This document shows, piece after piece, positions 1 through 36,385 of a stretch of DNA of 39,078 bases. Location of the stretch: positions 1-39,078 of the forward strand of contig VDMG01000267.1 in NCBI GenBank assembly GCA_006514895.1, read 5' to 3'. A program made the translations under genes and the position numbers. The notes beneath the pieces were generated by a model. That model made no database searches. It worked only from the letters and a program-made list of their open reading frames with translations, and was not told where the DNA came from. Source of the DNA: Beijerinckiaceae bacterium (GTDB lineage: Bacteria; Pseudomonadota; Alphaproteobacteria; Rhizobiales; Beijerinckiaceae). Every line of letters begins with the position of its first letter. The first letter of the stretch is position 1.

Positions 1-810
1 CCGCAGGAGCGGATCGTGCGGCGGGCCTTCACTGAGCGCCACGGCGCGCCGCAGCCTCGCCGGATTTGGCGCTAAGCCGATAAGCGGGTGCAGCAGCCCA
101 TCGGCGCAGAATTCCGCGCAGACTTCCACGGCTCTGCGCGCGCGAAGCAACTTCAGAAGCTCGGCGCGGATTCTTTCGCGCGAGAGGCGGGCAAGGCCCT
201 TCCTTTGACGGATAGCCGCCGAACGTCCGGCGGAATCGAGCGGGCCTTCGCCGAAATCGGCCGAAAAGCGAAAGAAGCGCAGGATGCGCAGATAGTCCTC
301 CTTGATGCGCCGCGCGGGCTCGCCGATGAAACGCACTTTTCGCGCCGCGATGTCGGCAAGGCCGCCGGTGTAATCGAAGAGCCGTCCATCGCATGTCATC
401 GAAAGCGCGTTCATTGTAAAATCGCGGCGCAGGGCATCCGCCTTGAAATCACGGCCGAAGCGAACGGTCGCATGACGGCCATCGGCTTCTATGTCCTCAC
501 GCAAGGTTGTCACTTCAAAAGTCTTTTCCCCCGCAAGCAGGGTTACGGTGCCATGTTGAAAGCCGGTCGGAATGGCGCGAATGCCCGCCGCTTTCGCCCG
601 CGCCATGACCGCCTCCGGCAAAAGCGTGGTCGCCAGATCGATCTCGCCGGCTGTCCTGCCGAAGAGAGAATCGCGCAGGGCGCCGCCGACAATGCGGGTT
701 TCCTCGCCTGCATGATCCAGCGCGGCCAAAACGGCGCGCAAGGCTTGATCGCCGAACAGGGCCGAAAGCGCATTGGGCGCCGCGATGCCCCGGTCTTCCG
801 CCGGGCTCAT
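1..810 (-). CDS. cca: CCA tRNA nucleotidyltransferase, 3' end outside window
   Basis: Adds or repairs the 3'-CCA of tRNAs in the cytoplasm from CTP and ATP. The frame reads from the ATG at 810 to the left edge with no stop (about 270 residues; the family is about 400). It begins MSPAEDRGIAAPNALSALFG. The nucleotidyltransferase fold is clear: IVGGALRDSLFGR near residues 40-52, then GEIDLAT, DALRRDFTMNAL near 130-141, and the tRNA-binding region RIKEDYLRILRFFRFSADFG. The metal-binding DxD appears as ExD (GEIDLAT), which I believe also occurs in rhizobial homologues. Its ATG overlaps the upstream DUF6111 stop as ATGA, so the genes are translationally coupled. Other frames over this stretch are shadows. 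The family is certain. Confidence 0.9.
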   Translation of the reverse strand, partial: MSPAEDRGIAAPNALSALFGDQALRAVLAALDHAGEETRIVGGALRDSLFGRTAGEIDLATTLLPEAVMARAKAAGIRAIPTGFQHGTVTLLAGEKTFEVTTLREDIEADGRHATVRFGRDFKADALRRDFTMNALSMTCDGRLFDYTGGLADIAARKVRFIGEPARRIKEDYLRILRFFRFSADFGEGPLDSAGRSAAIRQRKGLARLSRERIRAELLKLLRARRAVEVCAEFCADGLLHPLIGLAPNPARLRRAVALSEGPPHDPLLR

Positions 811-1067
811 TGCAAACGCCCTGGCACCAGCCGGCCATTCTCTATATGGGCCGGTATGTAAGCGCCCTCGTGGCGCGGCGCGAGAATGCCGAAGGCAAGC
901 ATGCCCGTGACGGCGATCGCAAGACCCGCCAAGGTCAGCGTCGAGACGGCGCCCTTGGTCCAATGCTCGATCGTGAAAGGATATTTTTGACGCAAAGCAA
1001 GATAGACCGCGTAGGCGGCGAAGGGGGAGGCAAACAGCAGAACTGGGTCGAGGACGGCACGCCACAT
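807..1067 (-). CDS. DUF6111-like small membrane protein
   Basis: An 86-residue protein starting MWRAVLDPVLLFASPFAAY. It has two hydrophobic helices, roughly residues 5-26 and 40-62, and a short polar tail ending HIENGRLVPGRLQ, so it should sit in the inner membrane. I chose the ATG at 1067 because it overlaps the upstream stop as TGATG and matches the usual family start; an in-frame start at 1121 would overlap that gene by 55 bases. Members of this family typically lie between a NUDIX hydrolase and cca in Hyphomicrobiales, as here. No biochemical role is known to me. Confidence 0.75.
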   Translation of the reverse strand: MWRAVLDPVLLFASPFAAYAVYLALRQKYPFTIEHWTKGAVSTLTLAGLAIAVTGMLAFGILAPRHEGAYIPAHIENGRLVPGRLQ

Positions 1068-1570
1068 CAGCCATAAAGCCTTTCGTAGAGATTGCGCAAA
1101 ATGCCCGCGGTTACGCCCCAAATATTCCGGCCGCCATAGGGCATCGCATGGAAACGGCGGATTTTTCCTTCAACCTCCTTATGGTGCAGCGCGTGATTGG
1201 CGGTGTCCATGAGAAAAGCGAAAGGCACCTCGAAGGCCTCTCCGGCCGAGGCCGCGCAGCTCCACGGCAAGGAAAGGGCGTCCTCGACCTTTACGCCGGC
1301 TTTCTCGACAGGGGTAACGAGAACATAGCCGTCGGGGTCTTTCCGCAAAATGGTCGAAAAGAGCCGCACGAGGGCGGGCCGGGCGATCGGGGTACCGCAG
1401 TAAAACCAAGTCCCGTCGCGGGCAATCCGCATCTCGATATCGCCGCAAAAGGGCGGATTCCATTGCTCCACCGGCGGCATGGCCGTGGCCAAGCTTTCCG
1501 TATCCAACTCCGAGCTCGTCGCGCCAATTCCGGCCTGCTGTTTACATTTGGCGAGAAACTCTTCGGCCAT
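1067..1570 (-). pseudogene. DUF1285 / NUDIX CoA-pyrophosphatase deletion fusion
   Basis: A 167-codon frame starts MAEEFLAKCKQQ with a GGAG site 5 bases upstream. Residues ~35-85 (PPVEQWNPPFCGDIEMRIA, then DGYVLVTPVEKAGVKVEDA) are the N-terminal half of a DUF1285 protein. From ~105 the sequence is the end of a NUDIX CoA pyrophosphatase (AFEVPFAFLMD, then NIWGVTAGILRNLYERLYG). The NUDIX box GX5EX7REUXEEXGU is absent, as is the C-terminal half of DUF1285. At the junction the next frame reads PFLAVELRGLG, the expected DUF1285 continuation, so one base was lost as well as a larger block, and together they restore an open frame. Homologues normally lie side by side as separate genes. NUDIX activity should be lost; any residual function is unknown. 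Confidence 0.8.
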
Positions 1571-6598: not shown

Positions 6599-7177
6599 TC
6601 ATGTCGCTATTGGTCCTTTCAATTCAATTCCCTTAGTTGGTGGCTCGCGCAGAAGCCCCCCTGAAAGATACTTACGCAATTCCAGTATCTTTGCGGGATC
6701 AACCACGTACCCTTTTTTCTTAAGCCCTTCAATGACGCTATTCGAAAATGCCTCAGCGAGCGCGTCACTGGTTTGGGGCAAATCGAGATCGAAGCGGTGG
6801 CCAGAAAATCGAATTCCCTTCAGAACAAAATCGATTGCACTCCTCCCAATATTCGTCCCCTTACGCTGACTTTTATCGCGCACCGCCTTGGAGATAATAT
6901 TGGGATCAACCACGGAGTCTTGAACTTCATCAGAGATTTTCTCCAGGATGACCCAAAAAGTTCGGTAGAAAGCATCGGGAGCCCCAAAACATCGTGCGCC
7001 GACTGTATTATACCAGAAACTGCGGGCGGCTTCTTGCAACTGTGTCCGAGCCATCATCTCCGCGACCGCAGTTACGAAGCCGATCTCGATTCTACGCTTG
7101 TCCCGCTCGCCTATGGGCCCGACTCTATCGGTGCGCGCGCCTCGTGCTACGACGTTGCGTGCTTCCGCGCAAACCAC
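6599..7177 (-). CDS. Unrecognised protein, low-GC gene
   Basis: I do not recognise this 192-codon frame. The start is uncertain: GTG at 7177, or the paired ATGs near 7060 (MMARTQLQEAARSFWYNTVG). The product looks soluble, with a helical middle (FWVILEKISDEVQDSVVDP) and a charged C-terminal half (SNSVIEGLKKKGYVVDPAKI). No signal peptide or membrane helix is visible. Codon use is clearly AT-richer than that of flanking genes, suggesting transfer. It lies directly after the broken MoxR operon and convergent to it, next to a degraded caspase-like gene on the same strand, so it may itself be a remnant. Confidence 0.55.
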   Translation of the reverse strand: MVCAEARNVVARGARTDRVGPIGERDKRRIEIGFVTAVAEMMARTQLQEAARSFWYNTVGARCFGAPDAFYRTFWVILEKISDEVQDSVVDPNIISKAVRDKSQRKGTNIGRSAIDFVLKGIRFSGHRFDLDLPQTSDALAEAFSNSVIEGLKKKGYVVDPAKILELRKYLSGGLLREPPTKGIELKGPIAT

Positions 7178-7204
7178 CTCGTCTCAAGCCGCCGGACGTA
7201 TGAG

Positions 7205-8950
7205 GCCTTGTAAGGTTTTCGGCCCCAATCGGACAAAAATGTTTCAAGTGAACCTGCTGCGGCAATCGCGGCTGCTGAACCTGCTGCGGCAATCGCTGCT
7301 GCTGGGGGTGGGATGGTTTCGGCATCATGGCGGGGCCAGCCCCGCGTCACAGGCCTGCCGTTGACATTTGATGGCGCGAGACGGTTGTGTGGCGGCACCT
7401 GTCCCGTGGGCGGTTTTTCAATGATTGCTGCCCCGCCGGTGAAAGCGTTCCGGACGGCGTGACCCGGCCCGTCTTTGCACCTTTTGTGGCGCCCGTCCCA
7501 CCAGTCACTGGGGAAAGCCCCTGGCCGCCGGGTAAGGCATGACCCGCGGGTGTTTTGTTCTGCGATGCTGCGCCCCCCGGCAATGGCTTGCCGTTCGCGC
7601 CAGGGGCCTGGCCACGGGCGGCGCCACCACATAGGCGGGTGGATTGATCCAAACCGGGACCGGCACGAACACCGGAACCGGCAACAGAAAGAGTCCATCC
7701 GGCGGCGGTGGCGGAATGACGAGATAGGCCGGCGGCGGCGCCAGGAAGACGATCGGCGGCGGCGGCACGAAACCGAACACCGGATCACTGAAGACAAGCA
7801 GCGGACGATCGACGTAAACGATCTCCGCCGGCGGCGGTGGCGGAACGTCGTAGACGATTGGAACAAAAGACGGCGGCGGCTCCACGGCGGCTGCCAGAGC
7901 GTCGAGCTGCCAGCGCGCCTCATCCCCATGCGGGCCGCGCGGATAGCGGCTCAGATAGGACCAATAGGCGTCCGGCGTACCGATGCGGCAGGTGTGCCGC
8001 CAAGTGAGAGCTTCGCGGCGGGCGGCCAGCAGGGCACGGACGCGATTTGCCAAGGGATCGTCTGAGTAAGCGGCGAGAAAGTCCTCATAGCCTTGCAGCG
8101 TATCCCGCTCGATCGCGGCGGCGTATGCGTCCTGCGCGCTGAGTTCGCGGAGAGGCTGCGACCGCATCGCGGTGACTCGGTCCGCCGCAAGGGCCGGGGG
8201 TTGCGCGTCCGGCGCCCGCTCGAAGTAGACGAGCGGCACTGCGATTCTTGACGTGTCCCAGGGCACCTGCGCGCCCTTTGTCTCTTCGTTGACGCGCAGA
8301 CGCACGCCGTCGAAAACGTCCGAAGGCGGCAGGCCGCCTTCCCCGGATCATTTCGGTACGCGCCCGTGCATAGGCGCCATAGGGCCCGCTTTCGGGGGCG
8401 CGACCGTGCCTGGCGTCGCATTGAAAGCCAGGAGCATGTTCGGCTCGGCGTCAGTGAGCGCCAGTCCGCCGGCCAGGGGCGGACCCGACTTCGCGAAAGG
8501 CGAAACTCTCGCTAGTGGAAGCCCGGCGAGCCGCTTTGTATAATCGGAGACGCGTAGCGCTTCGACCCCCACGTCCTGGGCCGACACGATCTTCGCGTCC
8601 ACCGGCACGAAATAGTTTTCGCCTTCGAACTGCAGGCCGTAACCGGCGAGATACACGAACGCCACAGTATCCGGTCCCGATGCCTGCGCCTTATCAAGAA
8701 AATCCCGGAATGCCGCGCGCAAGGATTCGCCATCGAGGTCGCGCGCGCCGGTGACGTCGAATCCCGCCGCTTGCAAGGTCTGGGCGATGACGCCTGCGTC
8801 ATTGGCCGGCGTGGCGAGCGGCCCCGCCTGATAGGCTGCGTTGCCAACCACGAAGGCGATACGTTTTTCGGTTTCCGCCCGCGAAGGCGATGCGAAAGCC
8901 AGCAACACGAGCGCAAAGCAAGCAGGCAACAGTTTGGATTTGATTTTCAT
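7205..8950 (-). pseudogene. Caspase-like (peptidase C14 fold) secreted protein, broken
   Basis: Starts at 8950 with a signal peptide (MKIKSKLLPACFALVLLAF, cleavage near SRA-ET) and a caspase-type domain: RIAFVVGNAAYQ, LATPANDAGVIAQTLQAAGF, then FVYLAGYGLQFEGENYFVPV. The catalytic His position of AGHG is Tyr here. The block that should carry the LDA(C/A)R-type motif is missing (text jumps from LAGLPLARV to SPFAKSG). Translation then shifts frame near 8365 and again near 8345, continues as GGLPPSDVFDGVRLRVNE, a region LQGYEDFLAAYSDDP, and a Pro-rich tail (VFGFVPPPPIVFLAPPP), and shifts again near 7600 and 7420. At least four lesions make it a pseudogene. Tyr instead of His suggests the ancestor was already a pseudo-enzyme. 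The left limit is approximate. Confidence 0.8.
7251..7304. repeat. 27-bp tandem repeat, two units
   Basis: Units 7251-7277 and 7278-7304 both begin AACCTGCTGCGGCAATCGC and differ at one or two bases near the end. On the minus strand they read as an Ala-rich duplicated peptide (AAAIAAAGS type) at the end of the decayed caspase-like gene. Replication slippage explains it. Confidence 0.85.
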
Positions 8951-9184
8951 GATGATCTCGTACTGGAAGAGCCAATTTCGAGCGCCATGCTACGGTTTGG
9001 CGCTGAACGAGACTTGAATGAAACAAGGCGGACCGAAGGCGAATCTAAAAAGACCAAAGAGCCTATCGCAGAGGATCTTGGCGTGATTCTGGCCTAAACG
9101 GATATCTCAATATAAGTTGCCCTTGCTATTGCTGCGTTGCAGCTATAAATTGTTGCATAGCAGTAACGCTTTATGGAGGTTGAC
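8951..9184. promoter_or_regulatory. Divergent region, caspase-like remnant / patatin
   Basis: 234 bases between the two divergent broken genes. The last 90 bases before the patatin start are AT-rich (9095-9170), as expected for a promoter. I see no operator or riboswitch that I can defend. Confidence 0.35.
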
Positions 9185-10172
9185 ATGCCGCATCTGGCCC
9201 GCACGGCATTGGTCCTGCAAGGCGGTGGTGCTCTTGGCGCCTACGAGCTGGGCGCGGCGCGTCGGCTCTATAAGGACGAAGCTTGCGCACCCGATGTGAT
9301 CGCCGGGGTCTCGATCGGCGCGATTACCGCGGTACTTCTGGCGCGGCCAGCCCCAGGACTAAAGCCGCTCGAAGCTCTGGAAGCGTTTTGGCAAAAGATC
9401 ACCGTGTCAGGACTTTTTCTGCCGCCGCCTTTGCGGCCCTACGCGTCGGCTCTCGGCAACCCGAATTTCTTCGTGCCGCGAATTGACTACTACGCCCTTG
9501 CGAGCTGGACCAATTTCTATGACACGGAGCCGCTCCGTGGTCGACCTCAAGGCTCTGGCCGATCCGAAAGCGAACCAGGATTGCTGGTGAGTGCGACCGA
9601 TGTGGAAGCTGGCCAGATCGAATATTTCTACAGCGGTGATAAGGGACTGTCCCTGGACCACATCGTCGCGAGCGGCAGCTTGCCGCCGTCGTTTCCGATG
9701 ACGGTAATCAACGATAAATTCTACTGGGACGGAGGCATATTCGACAATACGCCGCTCGGCGCCGTGCTCGACGGGCTCGATACCTCGGTGGGCGCGGACC
9801 GGACCATCTATGTCGTCAATCTATTTCCGAATAAGGCACCAGTCCCCCACAATATGCAGGAAGTCACGGCGAGGACCCAAAATTTCCAAATCGCCAACAA
9901 GAAATTGGAAGATGTGAATATGTTGGGCCGGATCAACGAGGTCGCCGTATTGATGGAGGCGCTCGAAAGTCTCCCCGAATGCAATCCGCTCAAGGACAAC
10001 CCAGCCTATCAGGCGGTGGCGAAGCGCCCATTACGATCGTGTCCCGAAAATCGTTTCAATTACGCGTCCGGAGGAGGTTTTGGGCTTTGGCGGCAGCGAT
10101 TTCTCGCCCGAGACAATCGAGCAGCGTGCGAACGAAGGCTACAAACAGACCGAGCAGGCGCTGCACGCGTAG
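9185..10172 (+). pseudogene. Patatin-like phospholipase, frameshifted
   Basis: Patatin-family lipid acyl hydrolase. The start at 9185 (MPHLARTALVLQGGGALGAY) has GGAGG five bases upstream. It keeps the oxyanion loop GGGALGAYELG, the nucleophile elbow GVSIGAI (Ser) and the DGGIFDNTPL Asp. Around 9536-9590 the frame reads GRPQGSGRSESE, while the adjacent frame reads VVDLKALADPKA, the expected sequence, so two compensating indels have scrambled about 15 residues. Near 10028 a further shift occurs: the true C-terminus reads HYDRVPKIVSITRPEEVLGF in another frame and stops at 10170-10172. The uncorrected frame runs on to 10348, antisense to the DUF177 gene. Three indels with an intact catalytic dyad suggest recent decay or sequence errors. 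Confidence 0.82.
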
Positions 10173-10840: not shown

Positions 10841-10890
10841 GCATGATCTTACCCAAAAGATCGCGCAACTTTTTTAAGGATGTGCTCTAG
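10841..10890. repeat. Dispersed palindromic element, family B
   Basis: Begins AGCATGATCTT, contains the inverted repeat GATCTT (10845-10850)/AAGATC (10857-10862), and ends CTTTTTTAAGGATGTGCTCT. The end is shared with 27636-27660 and 11580-11602. The stop codon of the bc1-chaperone gene (10887-10889) lies inside the element. Confidence 0.6.
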
Positions 10891-11414
10891 CGAATAGCGG
10901 AAGGGCGTGGAAATGGAACCGGACCCGTCATAAATGCCGCGAGCGAGGCATTGGCCAAGGCTTGGCTGGCGGCTTCCACATAGCGCGCAAGCCTCTCCGG
11001 GTTTCCGTGGCCATCATAGACATTTCGGGCAAGCGCGGCGGTGAGTTGCGGCGTGCCGCCGCTGAGGGCAAGGTCATAGGCCGTGGCGCGGCCCCGAAAA
11101 GCCTCGGCGATGGTTCGCATGCGCGTGCGCAAGCCGGTGTCGCCAACTCCCATTTCCTGCAAGGCGGTGTCGAAGGAGAGGAAAATGGCGTCCGTGAGAT
11201 CCTGCGCCATTTCGGGCGCCGGCGGCTTGCTGCGATTGAGCTGGCGCAGAATAAGCGCCGCGTGCAAAGCAAGTGCCTCGAAACGGCCTTGCAAACTGTC
11301 CTCGATGCCATACTCCGTGAAAAGCACGGGATCGCGGGCCGCCGCCACGATCTCGCCACGAAGCCGGTCGATCAGGTCCCGATTGGCCGACCGCCGGAAG
11401 AGCCGGAAAACCAT
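10887..11414 (-). CDS. Ubiquinol-cytochrome c chaperone family protein
   Basis: A 175-residue protein of the Cbp3/UQCC family that assists assembly of the cytochrome bc1 complex. It begins MVFRLFRRSANRDLIDRLRG. The family signature is visible: DPVLFTEYGIEDSLQGRFEA, LALHAALILRQL, LTDAIFLSFDTALQEMGVGD and MRTIAEAFRGRATAYDLAL. It is helical and cytoplasmic or membrane-associated. It lies directly upstream of DUF177 on the same strand and divergent from bamE. Its stop falls inside a dispersed repeat, so the last residues may vary between relatives. Intact. Confidence 0.9.
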   Translation of the reverse strand: MVFRLFRRSANRDLIDRLRGEIVAAARDPVLFTEYGIEDSLQGRFEALALHAALILRQLNRSKPPAPEMAQDLTDAIFLSFDTALQEMGVGDTGLRTRMRTIAEAFRGRATAYDLALSGGTPQLTAALARNVYDGHGNPERLARYVEAASQALANASLAAFMTGPVPFPRPSAIR

Positions 11415-11803
11415 GTTGTTTCCATCGGAAGGCTGCCGCCCTGCCCGACACCGGGCGAACGGCGAACCTTGCTTTTCACTGACGCGAAGGCTAGAGCGCT
11501 TGCCTGCGCGTAAAATTGCGTGATCGAAAAGGAAGCGCTCAAATTCAAAGGCTCGGAGCGTGTCCTACTCAAAAGGGCGATCAATTTTTTCGGGACATGC
11601 TCTACGCATCGCGCGGCCAAGCGCAAGGGCTTTATGTCGCCGGGATCATACCACGATGCTGGCCCATGACCCGTTTGGGCATCTCGCCAATATCCATCCG
11701 AAAAGCAATCGTTCATTGTTTTATGGAAATTTCATGCTTCGTAAAATTGTCCGGCCCGGTGAGGGTCTCTTTTTCCAATTTGCTCAACCCGGAGGCTTGT
11801 AGA
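11415..11803. other. Intergenic region with palindromic elements
   Basis: 389 bases between the divergent bc1-chaperone and bamE genes, which must contain both promoters. It holds an inverted repeat GAGCGCTT (11494-11501)/AAGCGCTC (11533-11540), and directly after it a second element with near-complementary ends, GAGCGTGTCC near 11556 and GGGACATGCTCT near 11591-11602, related to family B. An open frame crosses the region into bamE, but its product shows no family features and the bamE start is fixed by its signal peptide. Confidence 0.5.
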
Positions 11804-12277
11804 ATGGCGTTTGTAAGAGCGCGGAGAGGGCATGGAAACCGCCGGGCAACGGGCGGCGCTAGATTAGCTTTCCTAGCGGCGCTTGCGCTGGGGCTCGGTG
11901 GCTGCCTCGGCTACGACGGCCAGGTCGTCCATGGGTATCAGCTCAACCCCAAAACGGCGGAAGATGTCAAGGTTGGGTCTTCCGCGGAGCAGATCCTGGT
12001 TCTTTTGGGATCTCCAACGACGACATCCACCGTCGGCGGCGACGCCTGGTATTACATCTCCCAAACCACCGATCGCGGCCTTGGGTTCATGGTGCCCAAG
12101 GTCACCGATCAGCGGGTCTTTGCGGTCTATTTCACCAAGGACAAGAAGGTCGAGCGCGTCGCCAATTACGGCATGGAGGACGGCAAGCTCATCGATTTTG
12201 TGTCACGCACAACACCGACGGCCGGCGCCGAATCGACCTTCCTCAAGGGCATGTTCATCAACCTTCTGCATTTCTAA
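11804..12277 (+). CDS. bamE: Outer-membrane assembly lipoprotein BamE (SmpA/OmlA)
   Basis: A 157-residue lipoprotein subunit of the Bam complex that folds beta-barrel proteins into the outer membrane. The ATG at 11804 follows a GGAGG at 11791. A basic N-terminus, a hydrophobic stretch (LAFLAALALGL) and the lipobox LGGC with Cys near residue 33 mark lipidation. The SmpA/OmlA core is clear: GYQLNPKTAEDVKVGSSAEQ, ILVLLGSPTTTSTVGGDAWY and GFMVPKVTDQRVFAVYF. Slightly longer than E. coli BamE, as is usual in alphaproteobacteria. Intact. Confidence 0.92.
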   Translation: MAFVRARRGHGNRRATGGARLAFLAALALGLGGCLGYDGQVVHGYQLNPKTAEDVKVGSSAEQILVLLGSPTTTSTVGGDAWYYISQTTDRGLGFMVPKVTDQRVFAVYFTKDKKVERVANYGMEDGKLIDFVSRTTPTAGAESTFLKGMFINLLHF

Positions 12278-12288
12278 GCCGCATAATC

Positions 12289-12311
12289 CCAAAAAGCCGC
12301 AGACTTTTTGG
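12289..12311. terminator. Hairpin after bamE
   Basis: CCAAAAAG (12289-12296) pairs with CTTTTTGG (12304-12311) around a 7-base loop, 12 bases after the bamE stop. The right arm supplies a T run, so it could be a weak intrinsic terminator. Confidence 0.5.
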
Positions 12312-12344
12312 ATCGATCATGCGCCACAATAAAGAGTTAGAGAG

Positions 12345-12373
12345 CACGGGCGCCGCAACCTGAAGCGCCCGTG
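12345..12373. terminator. GC-rich hairpin between convergent bamE and hppA
   Basis: CACGGGCGC (12345-12353) pairs perfectly with GCGCCCGTG (12365-12373) around an 11-base loop. It lies between two converging genes. No T run follows on either strand, so termination is plausible but not proven. Confidence 0.45.
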
Positions 12374-12386
12374 ATCTCGACTCGAA

Positions 12387-12411
12387 AGCATTTTCAAGCG
12401 AAGTGGATACC
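12387..12411. repeat. Dispersed repeat family A, truncated copy
   Basis: AGCATTTTCAAGCGAAGTGG then ATACC. The same words occur at 17445-17470 and, reversed, at 36363-36383. Only the left part of the element is present. Confidence 0.65.
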
Positions 12412-12430
12412 GCGCGCGCTCCATGCCATC

Positions 12431-14572
<2,142 letters not shown>

Positions 14573-14709: not shown

Positions 14710-15705
14710 TTAAAAATGCCGGAAGGAGGGCTGCGCGAAAACCAAATTCCGCCCTTCCGTATCCTTGAGCACAGGCGGCGCGTTGCCTGGCTTGGCCGTG
14801 CCGATCGGGCTCACCGTGATCCCCGCGGCAATAGCGCGCGCCTCGAACGCGGCGCTTTGGGAGGGTGGCACGGCACAAAGCAGTTCATAGTCGTCGCCCC
14901 CGGTCAAAAGCGTTTCGAGGAGGGATGGCGCATGACGCACAACTTTCCGCGCCGCCTTGGAAAGCGGAACATCGGCGGCCGTAATCTCGGCTGTCATTCC
15001 AGTTAGGTGCAATATTTTCGCAAGATCGCCCGCAAGTCCATCCGAAATGTCCATGGCCGCATGTGCATGGGCACGAAGCGCCTCGCGCAAACAAAGACGT
15101 GGCTGCGGCAGAAGGTAGCGGCCGGCGAGATAGGCGGCGTCCGCTTGGGCAAGCCATTTCGTCCATTCGGCGTCTCGTGCCGCATCGACGCGGTATCGCA
15201 AGCCCAACGCCGCGTCCCCGATCGTCCCGGTCACATAAAGGAGGTCGCCCGCCGCGACGCCTTCGCGCAAAACCATTTTTCCCGCCGGAACAGCGCCGAG
15301 CGCGGTGATCGATATGGCGAGCGGACCAAGGTTCTTCACGGTGTCGCCGCCCAGAAGCGGACAATTGTAAGCCAGAGCATCCTCGCCGAGCCCTTGCGCG
15401 AAGCCCGCGAGCCACTCGGCCGTCCAATCCCCGGGCAAGGCAAGGCCCAGGAGAAACCCGCGCGGCTCGGCACCCTTGGCCGCAAGATCGGAGAGATTGA
15501 CCCGCAAGGCCTTTCGCGCGACCGCGCCCGCCGGATCAGCTTCGAAAAAATGCACGCCAGCGGTCAGCAAATCCTTGGTCGCGACGATATCCTGGCCTGG
15601 CGTTTGGGCGACAATCGCGGCATCGTCGCGCAGGCCAAATGCGCCCGGCCCCGCGAGCGGCGCGAAATAGGTGGCGATCAATTTGTCTTCCGAAGGACGC
15701 GGCAT
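14710..15705 (-). CDS. thiL: Thiamine-monophosphate kinase
   Basis: Phosphorylates thiamine monophosphate to thiamine diphosphate with ATP in the cytoplasm, the last step of TPP synthesis; the product is the cofactor of the PDH E1 encoded nearby. 331 residues, the family length. Visible motifs of the PurM-like fold: GLRDDAAIV, KALRVNLSDLAAKGAEPRGF, YNCPLLGGDTV and MDISDGLAGDLAKI, then LTGGDDYELLCAVP. It starts 12 bases after the nusB stop, so it is co-transcribed with ribH-nusB. Intact. Confidence 0.95.
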   Translation of the reverse strand: MPRPSEDKLIATYFAPLAGPGAFGLRDDAAIVAQTPGQDIVATKDLLTAGVHFFEADPAGAVARKALRVNLSDLAAKGAEPRGFLLGLALPGDWTAEWLAGFAQGLGEDALAYNCPLLGGDTVKNLGPLAISITALGAVPAGKMVLREGVAAGDLLYVTGTIGDAALGLRYRVDAARDAEWTKWLAQADAAYLAGRYLLPQPRLCLREALRAHAHAAMDISDGLAGDLAKILHLTGMTAEITAADVPLSKAARKVVRHAPSLLETLLTGGDDYELLCAVPPSQSAAFEARAIAAGITVSPIGTAKPGNAPPVLKDTEGRNLVFAQPSFRHF

Positions 15706-15717
15706 CGATGTCCAATC

Positions 15718-16182
15718 TTAACCGCGCGGTTCGAATTCCGCCGCGCGGCACTGGCGAGCCACGGCGTCCAACACCGCATTGATCATTCCGGCTTCTTCGG
15801 CGCCAAAAAACGCGCCGGCGACATCGACATACTCCTTGATGGAGACACGCGCGGGAATATCGCCGCGCTGCTTTAATTCATAAGCGCCCGCGCGCAGAAT
15901 TGCCCGCATGACGGAATCGATCCGCGCCAAGGGCCAGTCCGCCGCTAAGGTTTTGTCGATAATTCTGTCGATTGGACCCTGGGCGGAGACAACGCCGGAC
16001 AGAATATCGTCGAAGAACGCGATTTCCGCGTCCTTGTAACTCGCGCCTTCAATTTCATGACCGATCCAGAACAATTCGAACTCGTTGCGAGTCTCCTTCA
16101 GGCCGTTCCCGGTAACCTCCATTTTATAGAGAGCCTGAACGGCGGCGAGGCGGGCGGCGGAACGCCGGCCGGCACTGGCCAT
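15718..16182 (-). CDS. nusB: Transcription antitermination factor NusB
   Basis: 154 residues. RNA-binding factor of the ribosomal antitermination complex, acting with NusE on boxA. The all-helical family pattern is clear: RRSAARLAAVQALYKME at the N-terminus, then IDRIIDKTLAADWPLARIDS, VMRAILRAGAYELKQRGDIP and SIKEYVDVAGAFFGAEEAGM with a C-terminal NAVLDAVAR. Its ATG overlaps the ribH stop (TGATG), so the pair is translationally coupled. The ribH-nusB-thiL order is conserved in the class. Confidence 0.96.
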   Translation of the reverse strand: MASAGRRSAARLAAVQALYKMEVTGNGLKETRNEFELFWIGHEIEGASYKDAEIAFFDDILSGVVSAQGPIDRIIDKTLAADWPLARIDSVMRAILRAGAYELKQRGDIPARVSIKEYVDVAGAFFGAEEAGMINAVLDAVARQCRAAEFEPRG

Positions 16183-16955: not shown

Positions 16956-17327
16956 TCAAGCGTGATAACCGTGCTTCAATTTTGCCGACCGGATCATGGC
17001 ACGCGCTTCGCTGTCCTTGCCAGCCGCGCACGCATCCGCGGCGGGAACCAGTTCGGTCTCGATCTCATCATAGATCGATCGGTTGACATTTCCAGTGCCG
17101 ACGTCGGCGTCAAGAACGGTTTGATAATGGGTGAGCTCATTGGTGCAGGCGGCGCCGTCGGGCAATTTTGGCCAGTTCGGCGGAGCCGGGGCTTGAGGCG
17201 CCGCCGTCGCGACCGGCGCGGAAGAGCCAGCGGTTTGATTGCAGCCGCCAAGCGCTAGCGCGGCGAGCAGAACAGAGGCCGAAAGGCACGGGGCACTGAA
17301 CATTGATCCAACGGAAATTATTCGCAT
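16956..17327 (-). CDS. Small predicted lipoprotein, unknown function
   Basis: 123 residues. The ATG at 17327 has GGAG about 6 bases upstream. Signal sequence ...LSASVLLAALALGGC with the lipobox Cys near residue 29, then a Pro/Ala linker (SSAPVATAAPQAPAPPNWP) and a globular C-terminal part with two further Cys (GAACTNELTHYQTVLDADVG, ADACAAGKDSEARAMI). It should be anchored in the periplasmic or outer-membrane leaflet. Proteins of this shape occur in Hyphomicrobiales as uncharacterised lipoproteins. It is divergent from the chaB remnant and 256 bases upstream of ribH on the same strand. Confidence 0.75.
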   Translation of the reverse strand: MRIISVGSMFSAPCLSASVLLAALALGGCNQTAGSSAPVATAAPQAPAPPNWPKLPDGAACTNELTHYQTVLDADVGTGNVNRSIYDEIETELVPAADACAAGKDSEARAMIRSAKLKHGYHA

Positions 17328-17444
17328 CGCAAACTCCGCGAGAGGCGCCGAGCTTTAATTTCATCGGCTGATTTGCCTTTTGTCAGTACACATGCGGGCC
17401 AGGATAATCAATGGGAATGGTTTGCCGCCGGCCGTGCGGCCTAC

Positions 17445-17543
17445 AGCATTTTCAAGCAAAGTGGATACCGGTTCGCGTCAAGAAAATGCGATAAAACAAA
17501 GATCTAGAGTGCTTTCTGATTCTACGGAATCTGAAAGCACTCT
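17445..17543. repeat. Dispersed repeat family A, full copy with long hairpin
   Basis: Module 1 (17445-17490) begins AGCATTTTCAAGC, contains GTGGATACCGGTTCGCGTC, and has the inverted ends GCATTTTC (17446-17453)/GAAAATGC (17482-17489). Module 2 (17506-17543) is a near-perfect hairpin: AGAGTGCTTTC with GAAAGCACTCT (11 bp), one mismatch, then GATTC/GAATC around TACG. A reverse copy of module 1 lies at 36339-36385. Confidence 0.8.
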
Positions 17544-17595
17544 AATGGAACGAAAGCCGGGTCCATCTCATTACATTCAGAAGCCGGGCTTGACA

Positions 17596-23296: not shown

Positions 23297-24302
23297 TTAC
23301 GCGAGCCACCAAGTGCCAAAGGCGAGGCTCGCAAGCGTCAACGGCAGGCCGATCCGCAAATAAGCGAGAAAAGAGATTGTCACCCCCTCCTTTTTGGCGC
23401 GTTCCGCGACAATCAGATTTGCGACGGATCCTATCAAGGTGAGGTTTCCGGCGAAGGTGGAACTCATCGCCACGATCCGCCAAGCCCTGCCTGGGTCCGG
23501 CAAGTTCATGATGAACGGTTTTAAGATCAAGACCGCCGGCACATTGCTAACGAGGTTTGAGAGAGCGGCCGTCACGCCAGCCAAAATCCAAGCATTTTCG
23601 AGTGAAGCCGGTTGACCGCCGCCGTGAGATTTGTCGTCAAAAGCACCTTTTCGGCACCCGCCACGACAATAAAAAGCCCAGCGAACATCAACAAAAACCC
23701 GCCATCTATTCCGGCATACAGTTTGTGCGGGCTCACGGCGCGTGACAGAAGAAGCAGCGAGCCGCCGATGAGCGCTGCTTCAGCGATTGGAACGCCGGCA
23801 AAAAAACCAGCGATGACTCCCAAGGTCACGAGCATCCATGGCGAGCTGCCGTGAATGCTGGCGCGGGCGCGGCTCCTTCGCGCTCAAACCAAAAGCGGTT
23901 GAGAATTCCTCACGATAAAATAGAAGGATGAATCCCGCCGTCAGCGCGAGGGCAACTGCCGCCGCCGGCGCGAGCTTGCCGGCGAAATCCGCGTAATCCA
24001 GATGCGACGAGACGCCGATGATCATGTTTTGCGGATTGCCGGTGAAGGTCGCGGTTGCTCATGAGCACGCTGAGACCAGACGGCTTTTCGTGCGACGTGG
24101 AAGGGCCGTCGTGAAGGCCACGGGCGCGGTCGTAATCTATGGCGTCTGCTCTAATCGTGAGGACGCTCACGATCGACAGTAAAGCCATGCCAGACAGGAT
24201 ATAGAAGACGGCGATCGGTCCTAGCCCCTGGCGCACATCCGCAAGGAAGAAATTCAAGGCATCAAGCGAATACTCGGGCGCATCAATCAGTCCGCGAGAC
24301 AA
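23297..24302 (-). pseudogene. Fossil: MFS transporter fragment fused to SLC13/ArsB-type permease fragment
   Basis: Reading 5' to 3' on the minus strand, LIDAPEYSLDALNFFLADVR is a typical MFS N-terminus. It jumps without the middle helices to LSIVSVLTIRADAIDYDRAR and EKPSGLSVLMSN, a mid-protein MFS loop. At about 24045 it joins, out of frame, the permease sequence TATFTGNPQNMIIGVSSHLD, which continues LAPAAAVALALTAGFILLF. This shifts frame near 23840 (VTLGVIAGFFAGVPIAEAA) and again near 23590 (GVTAALSNLVSNVPAVLILK), ending YLRIGLPLTLASLAFGTWWL at 23297. No piece encodes a complete transporter. The SLC13 part resembles Na+/anion or arsenite permeases; substrate unknown. Confidence 0.8.
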
Positions 24303-28940: not shown

Positions 28941-29017
28941 CCGGTCGAAAACGCCTCCTCCGGCACAGATTTTCGTTTACGAACTCAACAGCGCGATCGC
29001 GCCGCCGCCGCGCAACA

Positions 29018-30326: not shown

Positions 30327-31905
30327 TCACAGATTAAAGAAGTTTTGCAACGCCTGCGCGACGCGGTCAAAAACCTCCGCCCAATCACCGCGGTGCTTCT
30401 GCCGGAACAGCCGCATCGTCGGGTACCAGGGGCTATCCTCGCGGTCGAGAAGCCAACGCCAATCCGGTACTTGTTTTAGGAGGACAAAAACAGGCTGGCC
30501 GAGCGCGCCCGCGAGATGCGCGATCGACGTATCGCAGGTGATAATCAAATCCAAATTTTGCATGACCGCCGCGGTATCGATGAAAGCATCGGTGCCGGCA
30601 TCGAAATCCTCGCCAAGCAGGATCAATCCGGGCAAGGTCTCCCCAGCCGCGCAAACCTCTATTTTCTGGATGCTGATGAGACGCACACCATCGATTTTGG
30701 GTAAGCTTCGTGAAACAAGCAAGAGGGATCGAGCGGGCCGGGTCCGCCTTGATGTTTGGATTCCCTCGCCAGCAAATGCCGATCGTGAAACCATGTGAGC
30801 CGATCGGCGCCGCCCATTTTTGCACCAAGAGCGCCTCGGCGCTTAAATAGGACAAAGTTGCAGGAATGGTCGCAAGCCGTGTCTTAAACGCGCGGGGAAG
30901 GCTCGAAAGCGCAGTCTGATAATCGAAGCGCTCGTTCGCATCGGCATCATTGGCGATCTTGATCTGCCCATCGAGCCCCTTGAAGAGCCGCCGCAAGCTT
31001 TTGCGGCAGAAGAAAGTGACATTGGCGCCCTGTCCGGCAAGGATAAGAAGATAGCGCGCGAATTGGATCGCGTCGCCGTGTCCCTGCTCGTCAAAAACGG
31101 CGATACTGCAACCGTCCGGATCGTCCCCTTGCCACTCCGGGACCGGATGATTGAGCGCATACTTCGGCATCCCGGAAAGGATCCAGCGATATTCGTAGAG
31201 TTCGAGGCCTCGCTCGAAATCCCCGCGAAGTAGCAGAAGTGCCGCTTTGTTGTTGTTGGCGTGAGCCGAGGCGGGATCGCACGCCAAGGCCGAGTCGAAA
31301 CCCTCGAGAGCCGCCTCGAACCGGCCCAAATATTTGAGCGCGACGGCGCGCCCGCTGAGCGCCTCGACACAACCAGGCCGAAGCGCCATGGCTTTCTCAA
31401 CAGCATCAAGGGCTGCTTCCGGCTGTTGAAGTTTTAGAAAAAGCTTGCCACGATTCGACCAAGCTTGCGGGAGTCGAGGTTCAATCCGCAAGGCCTTGGC
31501 GAGGTCGTGCCGGCCTCTGGCAGGCGCCCCAGCATAAGCAAGACGGCGCCGCGATTGTTCAGAATATCGGCCCCGGCCGTTGGAGGAGATTGCCACGATC
31601 GATCAAAGCTTCGATGAAAGAAGGCCGCAGCCGCAGCGCCTCATCGATAAATTTGAGGGCGCTCTCATACCGTCCGAGGTCGCTTAGAACAACGCCGCCG
31701 ACGCGCAAGGCTTCCGGATAAGCAGGATCGAGCCGCAACGCGATACGAGCGTGTCCACTGTCCGTCCGAGTTCTTGCAAAGCGAGGCCACGGTTCGACAA
31801 AGCCTCTAAATTGGCGGGATCGAGCGCCAAGGCGCGATCGAACCATTCGAGTGCCGGCAGATTTTTATCGCGCTTCCGCGAGAGGTGCCGCTGATTTTCG
31901 TCGCG
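30327..31905 (-). pseudogene. TPR protein with glycosyltransferase-like C-terminus, broken
   Basis: N-terminal tetratricopeptide repeats are readable in several frames: LEWFDRALALDPANLEALSN, then (frame change near 31757) IALRLDPAYPEALRVGGVVL and RYESALKFIDEALRLRPSFI, then (near 31580) ILNNRGAVLLMLGRLPEA, then (near 31510) DLAKALRIEPRLPQAWSNRG and RFEAALEGFDSALACDPASA. The C-terminal domain (GLELYEYRWILSG, IAVFDEQGHGDAIQFARYLL, FTIGICWRGNPNIKADPARS) is the GT41/ADP-heptose-transferase-like part of bacterial TPR glycosyltransferase proteins. It shifts frame near 30703 and ends CDTSIAHLAGALGQPVFVLL to 30327. At least four frame changes and no start codon that fits: a clear pseudogene. Confidence 0.82.
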
Positions 31906-36314: not shown

Positions 36315-36385
36315 TGCGCTTTCAGAGTCAGCGGAATCGCATTTTCTCGACGCGAACCGGTATCCACTCGCTTGAAAATGCTCTA
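36313..36385. repeat. Dispersed repeat family A, reverse copy
   Basis: Reverse of the 17445 copy: GCATTTTC (36339-36346), GACGCGAACCGGTATCCACT, GAAAATGC (36374-36381), ending CTCTA. The right-hand module is only half present (GCGCTTTCAGAGTC at 36317-36330). It begins at the stop codon of the flavin monooxygenase and marks the edge before the integrated element. Confidence 0.75.

Follow-up and report, generated by a model that had tools for sequence, protein, structure and literature searches.

Pseudogenes can form by deletion across neighbouring genes, and the locus described here, on a contig of 39,078 bases that we analysed whole (the window), bears on one such pair of neighbours. The parts of the description of the DUF1285 family on which we draw (PMC2954208) present its members as two-domain proteins, a ligand site being proposed to lie between the domains, and place Nudix genes near the majority of DUF1285 genes. 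The source genome, from a Beijerinckiaceae bacterium, is a draft of 3.03 Mb in 312 contigs.

Close to the start of the window a single open frame merges the front of a DUF1285 gene with the tail of a CoA-pyrophosphatase-like gene, and its presence in the assembly is confirmed (Table 1). Residues 32-98 of the chimera cover all 67 positions of the Pfam model DUF1285_N (PF06938, E 1.2e-34), whereas residues 108-166 correspond to the C-terminal ends of the neighbouring Nudix genes of relatives, with 86% identity to G006 and 82% to G001; a sequence-only reading of this DNA, which had the frame start as DUF1285 and end as a NUDIX CoA pyrophosphatase, thus named both parents correctly. It was also right that the NUDIX box and half of DUF1285 are gone: a Pfam scan of the chimera gives no match to PF00293 (NUDIX) and no Nudix box, and DUF1285_C (PF21028), found whole in the DUF1285 protein of the same-genus genome G001, is missing. 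The NCBIfam model PRK10707 covers the chimera only over model positions 130-185 of 192, at 17.6 bits against a cut-off of 134. The Nudix gene of G001 matches Pfam NUDIX and has CoA pyrophosphatase (PRK10707, E 3.8e-37) as its best NCBIfam match, although its 127.7 bits lie slightly below the same curated cut-off. Upstream of the start at 1570 the frame stays open as far as an ATG at 1879, yet 1570 is the position matched by the G006 start (MAEAF..). A hairpin noticed by eye at the junction (GGCCTC..GAGGCC) was set aside, as it folds no better than shuffled sequences (z 0.26).

Table 1. Features of the chimeric locus and of the genes next to it (window coordinates).
Feature	Position	Strand	Basis
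Cca-type gene (PolyA_pol head domain, E 3e-26), truncated by contig end	1..810	-	Pfam
DUF6111 gene (PF19606, E 9.7e-15)	807..1067	-	Pfam
GAAAGG ribosome-site-like motif within the tail; Nudix stop and DUF6111 start overlapping as TGATG	1065..1084	-	
Chimeric open frame, 167 codons and stop	1067..1570	-	Translation of ORF
Nudix tail, last 57 residues (EAFEVP.. to end), CoA-pyrophosphatase-like, without Nudix box	1070..1240	-	
Junction zone: DUF1285 continues briefly out of frame, followed by about 20 bases clearly assignable to neither gene; expected place of the missing block (DUF1285_C and first ~150 Nudix residues)	1241..1276	-	
Place of one-base loss, C run directly 3' of codon 97	1271..1282	-	Comparison with relatives
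Complete DUF1285_N domain (PF06938 1-67/67)	1277..1477	-	Pfam match

Two lesions separate the window from its relatives. Among relatives, the 11 with no assembly gap have 757-832 bases between codon 98 and the EAFEVP-like motif, against 36 bases in the window, a net loss of 721-796 bases, or of 740 when measured against G001 (776 bases), which agrees with the several hundred bases estimated beforehand from the letters alone; in G006 the same distance is 696 bases, with an NN assembly gap within that stretch. Directly 3' of codon 97 the peptide PFLAVEL has to be read from the next frame in the window, whereas relatives carry VEDAPFLAVEM or a similar stretch without any shift of frame, indicating that one base is missing in the C run; the out-of-frame peptide had been taken as the mark of such a loss, and its in-frame counterpart in relatives confirms this. 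Some 20 bases at the junction have no clear match on either side, and the breakpoint therefore cannot be placed with single-base precision. One earlier claim fails: the deletion was said to be in frame, but alone it shifts the frame, which is opened only by the added one-base loss. Without the latter the DUF1285 frame would stop at 1179-1181, about 110 bases before the DUF6111 start, so that neither lesion alone suffices; with both, reading continues in the correct frame of the Nudix tail as far as the stop codon native to the Nudix gene. By simple reasoning an in-frame outcome would arise by chance in about one case in three.

The arrangement is confined to the source genome among the genomes that we compared, one per species. 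DUF1285 and Nudix are two separate adjoining genes in 12 of 14 same-genus (Methylocapsa-like) genomes, which is the alignment that the sequence-only reading had proposed as a check; within this set DUF1285 is interrupted by an NN gap in G006, G012 retains the Nudix end only, its DUF1285 side lying off its contig, and G004 has DUF1285 intact and the Nudix gene not beside it. A search of 60 genomes including the source genome (G000) gave a match to the chimera in 57, and a match to the whole of it in G000 only. G022 shows a single alignment over 29-151, which we read as an overrun of the DUF1285 alignment because a separate tail match is also there. Extending the search to 248 genomes of the family, G000 included, gave matches in 208, and genomes with two matches were judged by match count. 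Among the matches listed, six genomes had a single match by eye, namely G000, G004, G017, G082, G020 and G153; the match is to the DUF1285 side only in G004, G017 and G082 and to the tail only in G020, G153 being assigned its one match by match count, and overruns like that of G022 were seen in a few genomes. Homologues of the same architecture, which would have spoken against a deletion, were seen in neither set, and a recurrent fusion was therefore dropped, a second case being absent from the 60 as well as the 248. A literature search for a precedent of such a DUF1285-Nudix fusion returned nothing usable.

The source genome itself offers no replacement that we could find. A genome search found no other DUF1285_N, a search run without a positive control found no DUF1285_C anywhere, and no other full-length relative of the neighbouring Nudix enzyme was found; six other Nudix places are present, all above the Pfam cut-off. 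The missing block was also looked for elsewhere in the source genome and was not found.

We consider it probable that the frame arose by recent, lineage-specific gene decay through deletion, that it is open by accident and that it represents no new kind of protein. The ancestor would have had DUF1285 followed in order by a CoA-pyrophosphatase-like Nudix gene, DUF6111 and cca. A deletion of some 740 bases would have taken DUF1285_C together with the first ~150 Nudix residues including the catalytic box, and a nearby one-base loss would have brought what remained of the Nudix tail into the reading frame of the remaining DUF1285_N. We infer that both activities would thereby be gone and that the open frame would be a by-product, the Nudix 3' end being perhaps spared for carrying the start signals of DUF6111.

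Substitution counts on the retained pieces show no relaxation, which counts against decay. With G001 as the outgroup there are 5 nonsynonymous and 15 synonymous changes on the source branch against 6 and 14 on the branch of its sister G006, and with G010 as the outgroup 5 and 16 against 4 and 11. Had selection been lacking for 20% of the branch, a count of nonsynonymous changes this low would be met with P ~0.04, a value that depends on an assumed transition bias and on small counts; Fisher tests on the source branch, with the chimera pieces set against their neighbours, gave no significant difference (P 0.08 and 0.22). The retained pieces thus look constrained, implying that the event is recent, or that the product is under selection, or that the lesion is not real; if the event is recent, relaxed selection would go unseen on such a remnant. 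The second of these would mean that selection maintains the frame for a functional protein, a DUF1285_N standing alone with a Nudix tail that it has borrowed. Its N-terminal domain is complete, the ratio of changes is that of a constrained sequence, and the solved DUF1285 protein Sbal_2486 has a shortened second domain too, according to the part of its description considered here (PMC2954208). However, the ligand site proposed in that same part (PMC2954208) sits between two domains, one of which is gone here, the fold predicted from an alignment of only 12 rows is poor (mean pLDDT 44.4, with residues 87-167 below 50), and recency explains the constraint equally well, so that we regard such a protein as very improbable.

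The window contains other broken genes, which favours plain decay. Compared base by base with G006 only, a TPR-repeat gene (30429-31854, minus strand) has lost 58 bases at one point and 1 base at another and has gained 1 base; its deletion and 1-base loss lie close together and do not restore the frame. A transporter-like gene (23300-24058, minus strand), its type assigned by eye, is reduced to a C-terminal half with two frame breaks, the N-terminal half being no longer recognisable, whereas its counterpart in G001 is an open frame of 464 codons. Compared with three relatives it has lost 2 bases and 1 base, and beyond an intervening stop codon the two losses bring the frame back; because these lesions cancel, the row itself (60% identity, 0.55 coverage) shows no switch of frame. 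Near the 3' end of a patatin-like phospholipase gene (10027-10031, plus strand) there is one C more than in six loci from four distinct places. Frame breaks were judged against three relatives in a final survey of 26 rows, and 12 rows hand-picked as strong likely genes, with rows on the likely non-coding strand left out, span 19.4 kb with no frame break. Several further signals of frame breaks were left out of account: that at 14713-15961 is a gene boundary with an AIR-synthase-like gene beside NusB, that at 20.6-21.1 kb shows no gap against G001 or G010 and is where the G006 match ends, that at 28957 falls between two genes by position, that at 31.6-31.9 kb shows no gap on comparison, and those at 7239-9103, 10887-12274, 12145-12518 and 17239-17444 were set aside for low identity or short length. 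The source genome has its 3.03 Mb at 99.74% completeness, as against 3.3-5.2 Mb for same-genus genomes at least 90% complete. Short dispersed repeats also occur in the window, at ~7163-7252, ~11521-11604, ~17441-17545 and ~36337-36385, and the ~85-base repeat at 11521 has dozens of matches in G010 and many in G006.

The same survey bears on the third implication of the constrained pieces, namely that the chimera is an artefact of assembly or base calling in which a block was dropped and a base of the C run miscalled. The lesions are known from the assembly alone, a draft in 312 contigs; the one-base loss lies in a C run and the patatin gene has an extra C, and the NN gap that G006 shows in the same gene suggests that the region may be hard to assemble. 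The junction, moreover, is only ~1.25 kb from the contig end, for which reason we rated an artefact somewhat higher and decay slightly lower. Against this, the window has no N and, unlike random error, the damage is concentrated in a few genes while the 19.4 kb of strong rows is unbroken; this distribution, grouped after the data had been seen and with several weak signals left aside, favours decay over random sequencing error, and we hold an artefact to be unlikely.

The sequence-only reading had the chimera joined to DUF6111 and then to cca, and the stop/start overlap and the PolyA_pol head domain uphold that order. The Nudix stop overlaps the DUF6111 ATG (TGATG or TAATG) in the window and in 12 of 13 same-genus genomes, G013 being the exception, and GAAAGG or GAGAGG lies upstream of the DUF6111 start in all 13; the motif uses the Arg codon AGG, which makes up 27 of the 450 Arg codons in 12 ORFs of the window treated as genes. 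Beyond the genus, no more than 7 of the 28 loci that match the tail have the motif. Judging from these conserved letters, within the genus the tail DNA probably doubles as the start region of DUF6111. As the tail holds the ribosome-site-like motif and the overlap, its loss might harm DUF6111 and cca, and a longer deletion would for the same reason be harmful; this role of the DNA says nothing on whether the fused peptide matters.

Translational coupling of the chimera to DUF6111 and cca is plausible. The sequence-only reading went on to suggest that translation through the chimera is maintained for the benefit of these genes; this may be so, but the other damaged genes of the window speak for plain decay. 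A stronger proposal is that selection for continuous translation favoured the one-base loss after the deletion, since the restored coupling would spare DUF6111 and cca polar effects. In its favour are the overlap and the motif, with its AGG codon, and the stop that the deletion alone would impose on translation short of the DUF6111 start. It is nonetheless a single event, an in-frame result would be met in about a third of cases, and the broken transporter gene has cancelling losses of its own, while in the TPR gene lesions cluster and leave the frame broken. Since cancelling lesions also occur in a dead gene and conservation of the motif is narrow, we rated this selection lower and think it quite improbable; we give as little credence to its corollary, a dead gene kept open for its neighbours, in which the fused peptide has no meaning of its own and is made solely so that ribosomes reach DUF6111 and cca. 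As a separate observation, the cca frame is open and has 32 nonsynonymous and 28 synonymous changes on the source branch against 15 and 35 on the sister branch with G001 as the outgroup, and 27 and 32 against 16 and 25 with G010.

Recent decay by deletion, the reading that we prefer, carries a caution for annotation: the frame should not be entered as a new domain architecture, being the collapsed gene pair of one genome. If real, it would mean that a CoA-pyrophosphatase-like enzyme and DUF1285 were lost together in a small-genome relative of soil methane-oxidisers, and would provide a modest natural experiment on whether the deletions able to persist in a gene cluster are restricted by translational coupling.

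Compared with the known systems, the chimera resembles the DUF1285 family (PF06938 and PF21028; SPO0140, PDB 2re3) in its complete N-terminal domain and in the Nudix neighbour found in relatives, and differs from it in having no C-terminal domain and hence no interdomain cleft. To the CoA pyrophosphatases (NCBIfam NF007980/PRK10707) it is linked by its last ~57 residues, so close to the proteins of G006 and G001, whereas the Nudix box and about 150 N-terminal residues are missing. With deletion pseudogenes it shares two joined remnants, a small second lesion nearby and decayed genes around, and the difference is that the joined frame here happens to run on as far as the stop codon native to the second gene.
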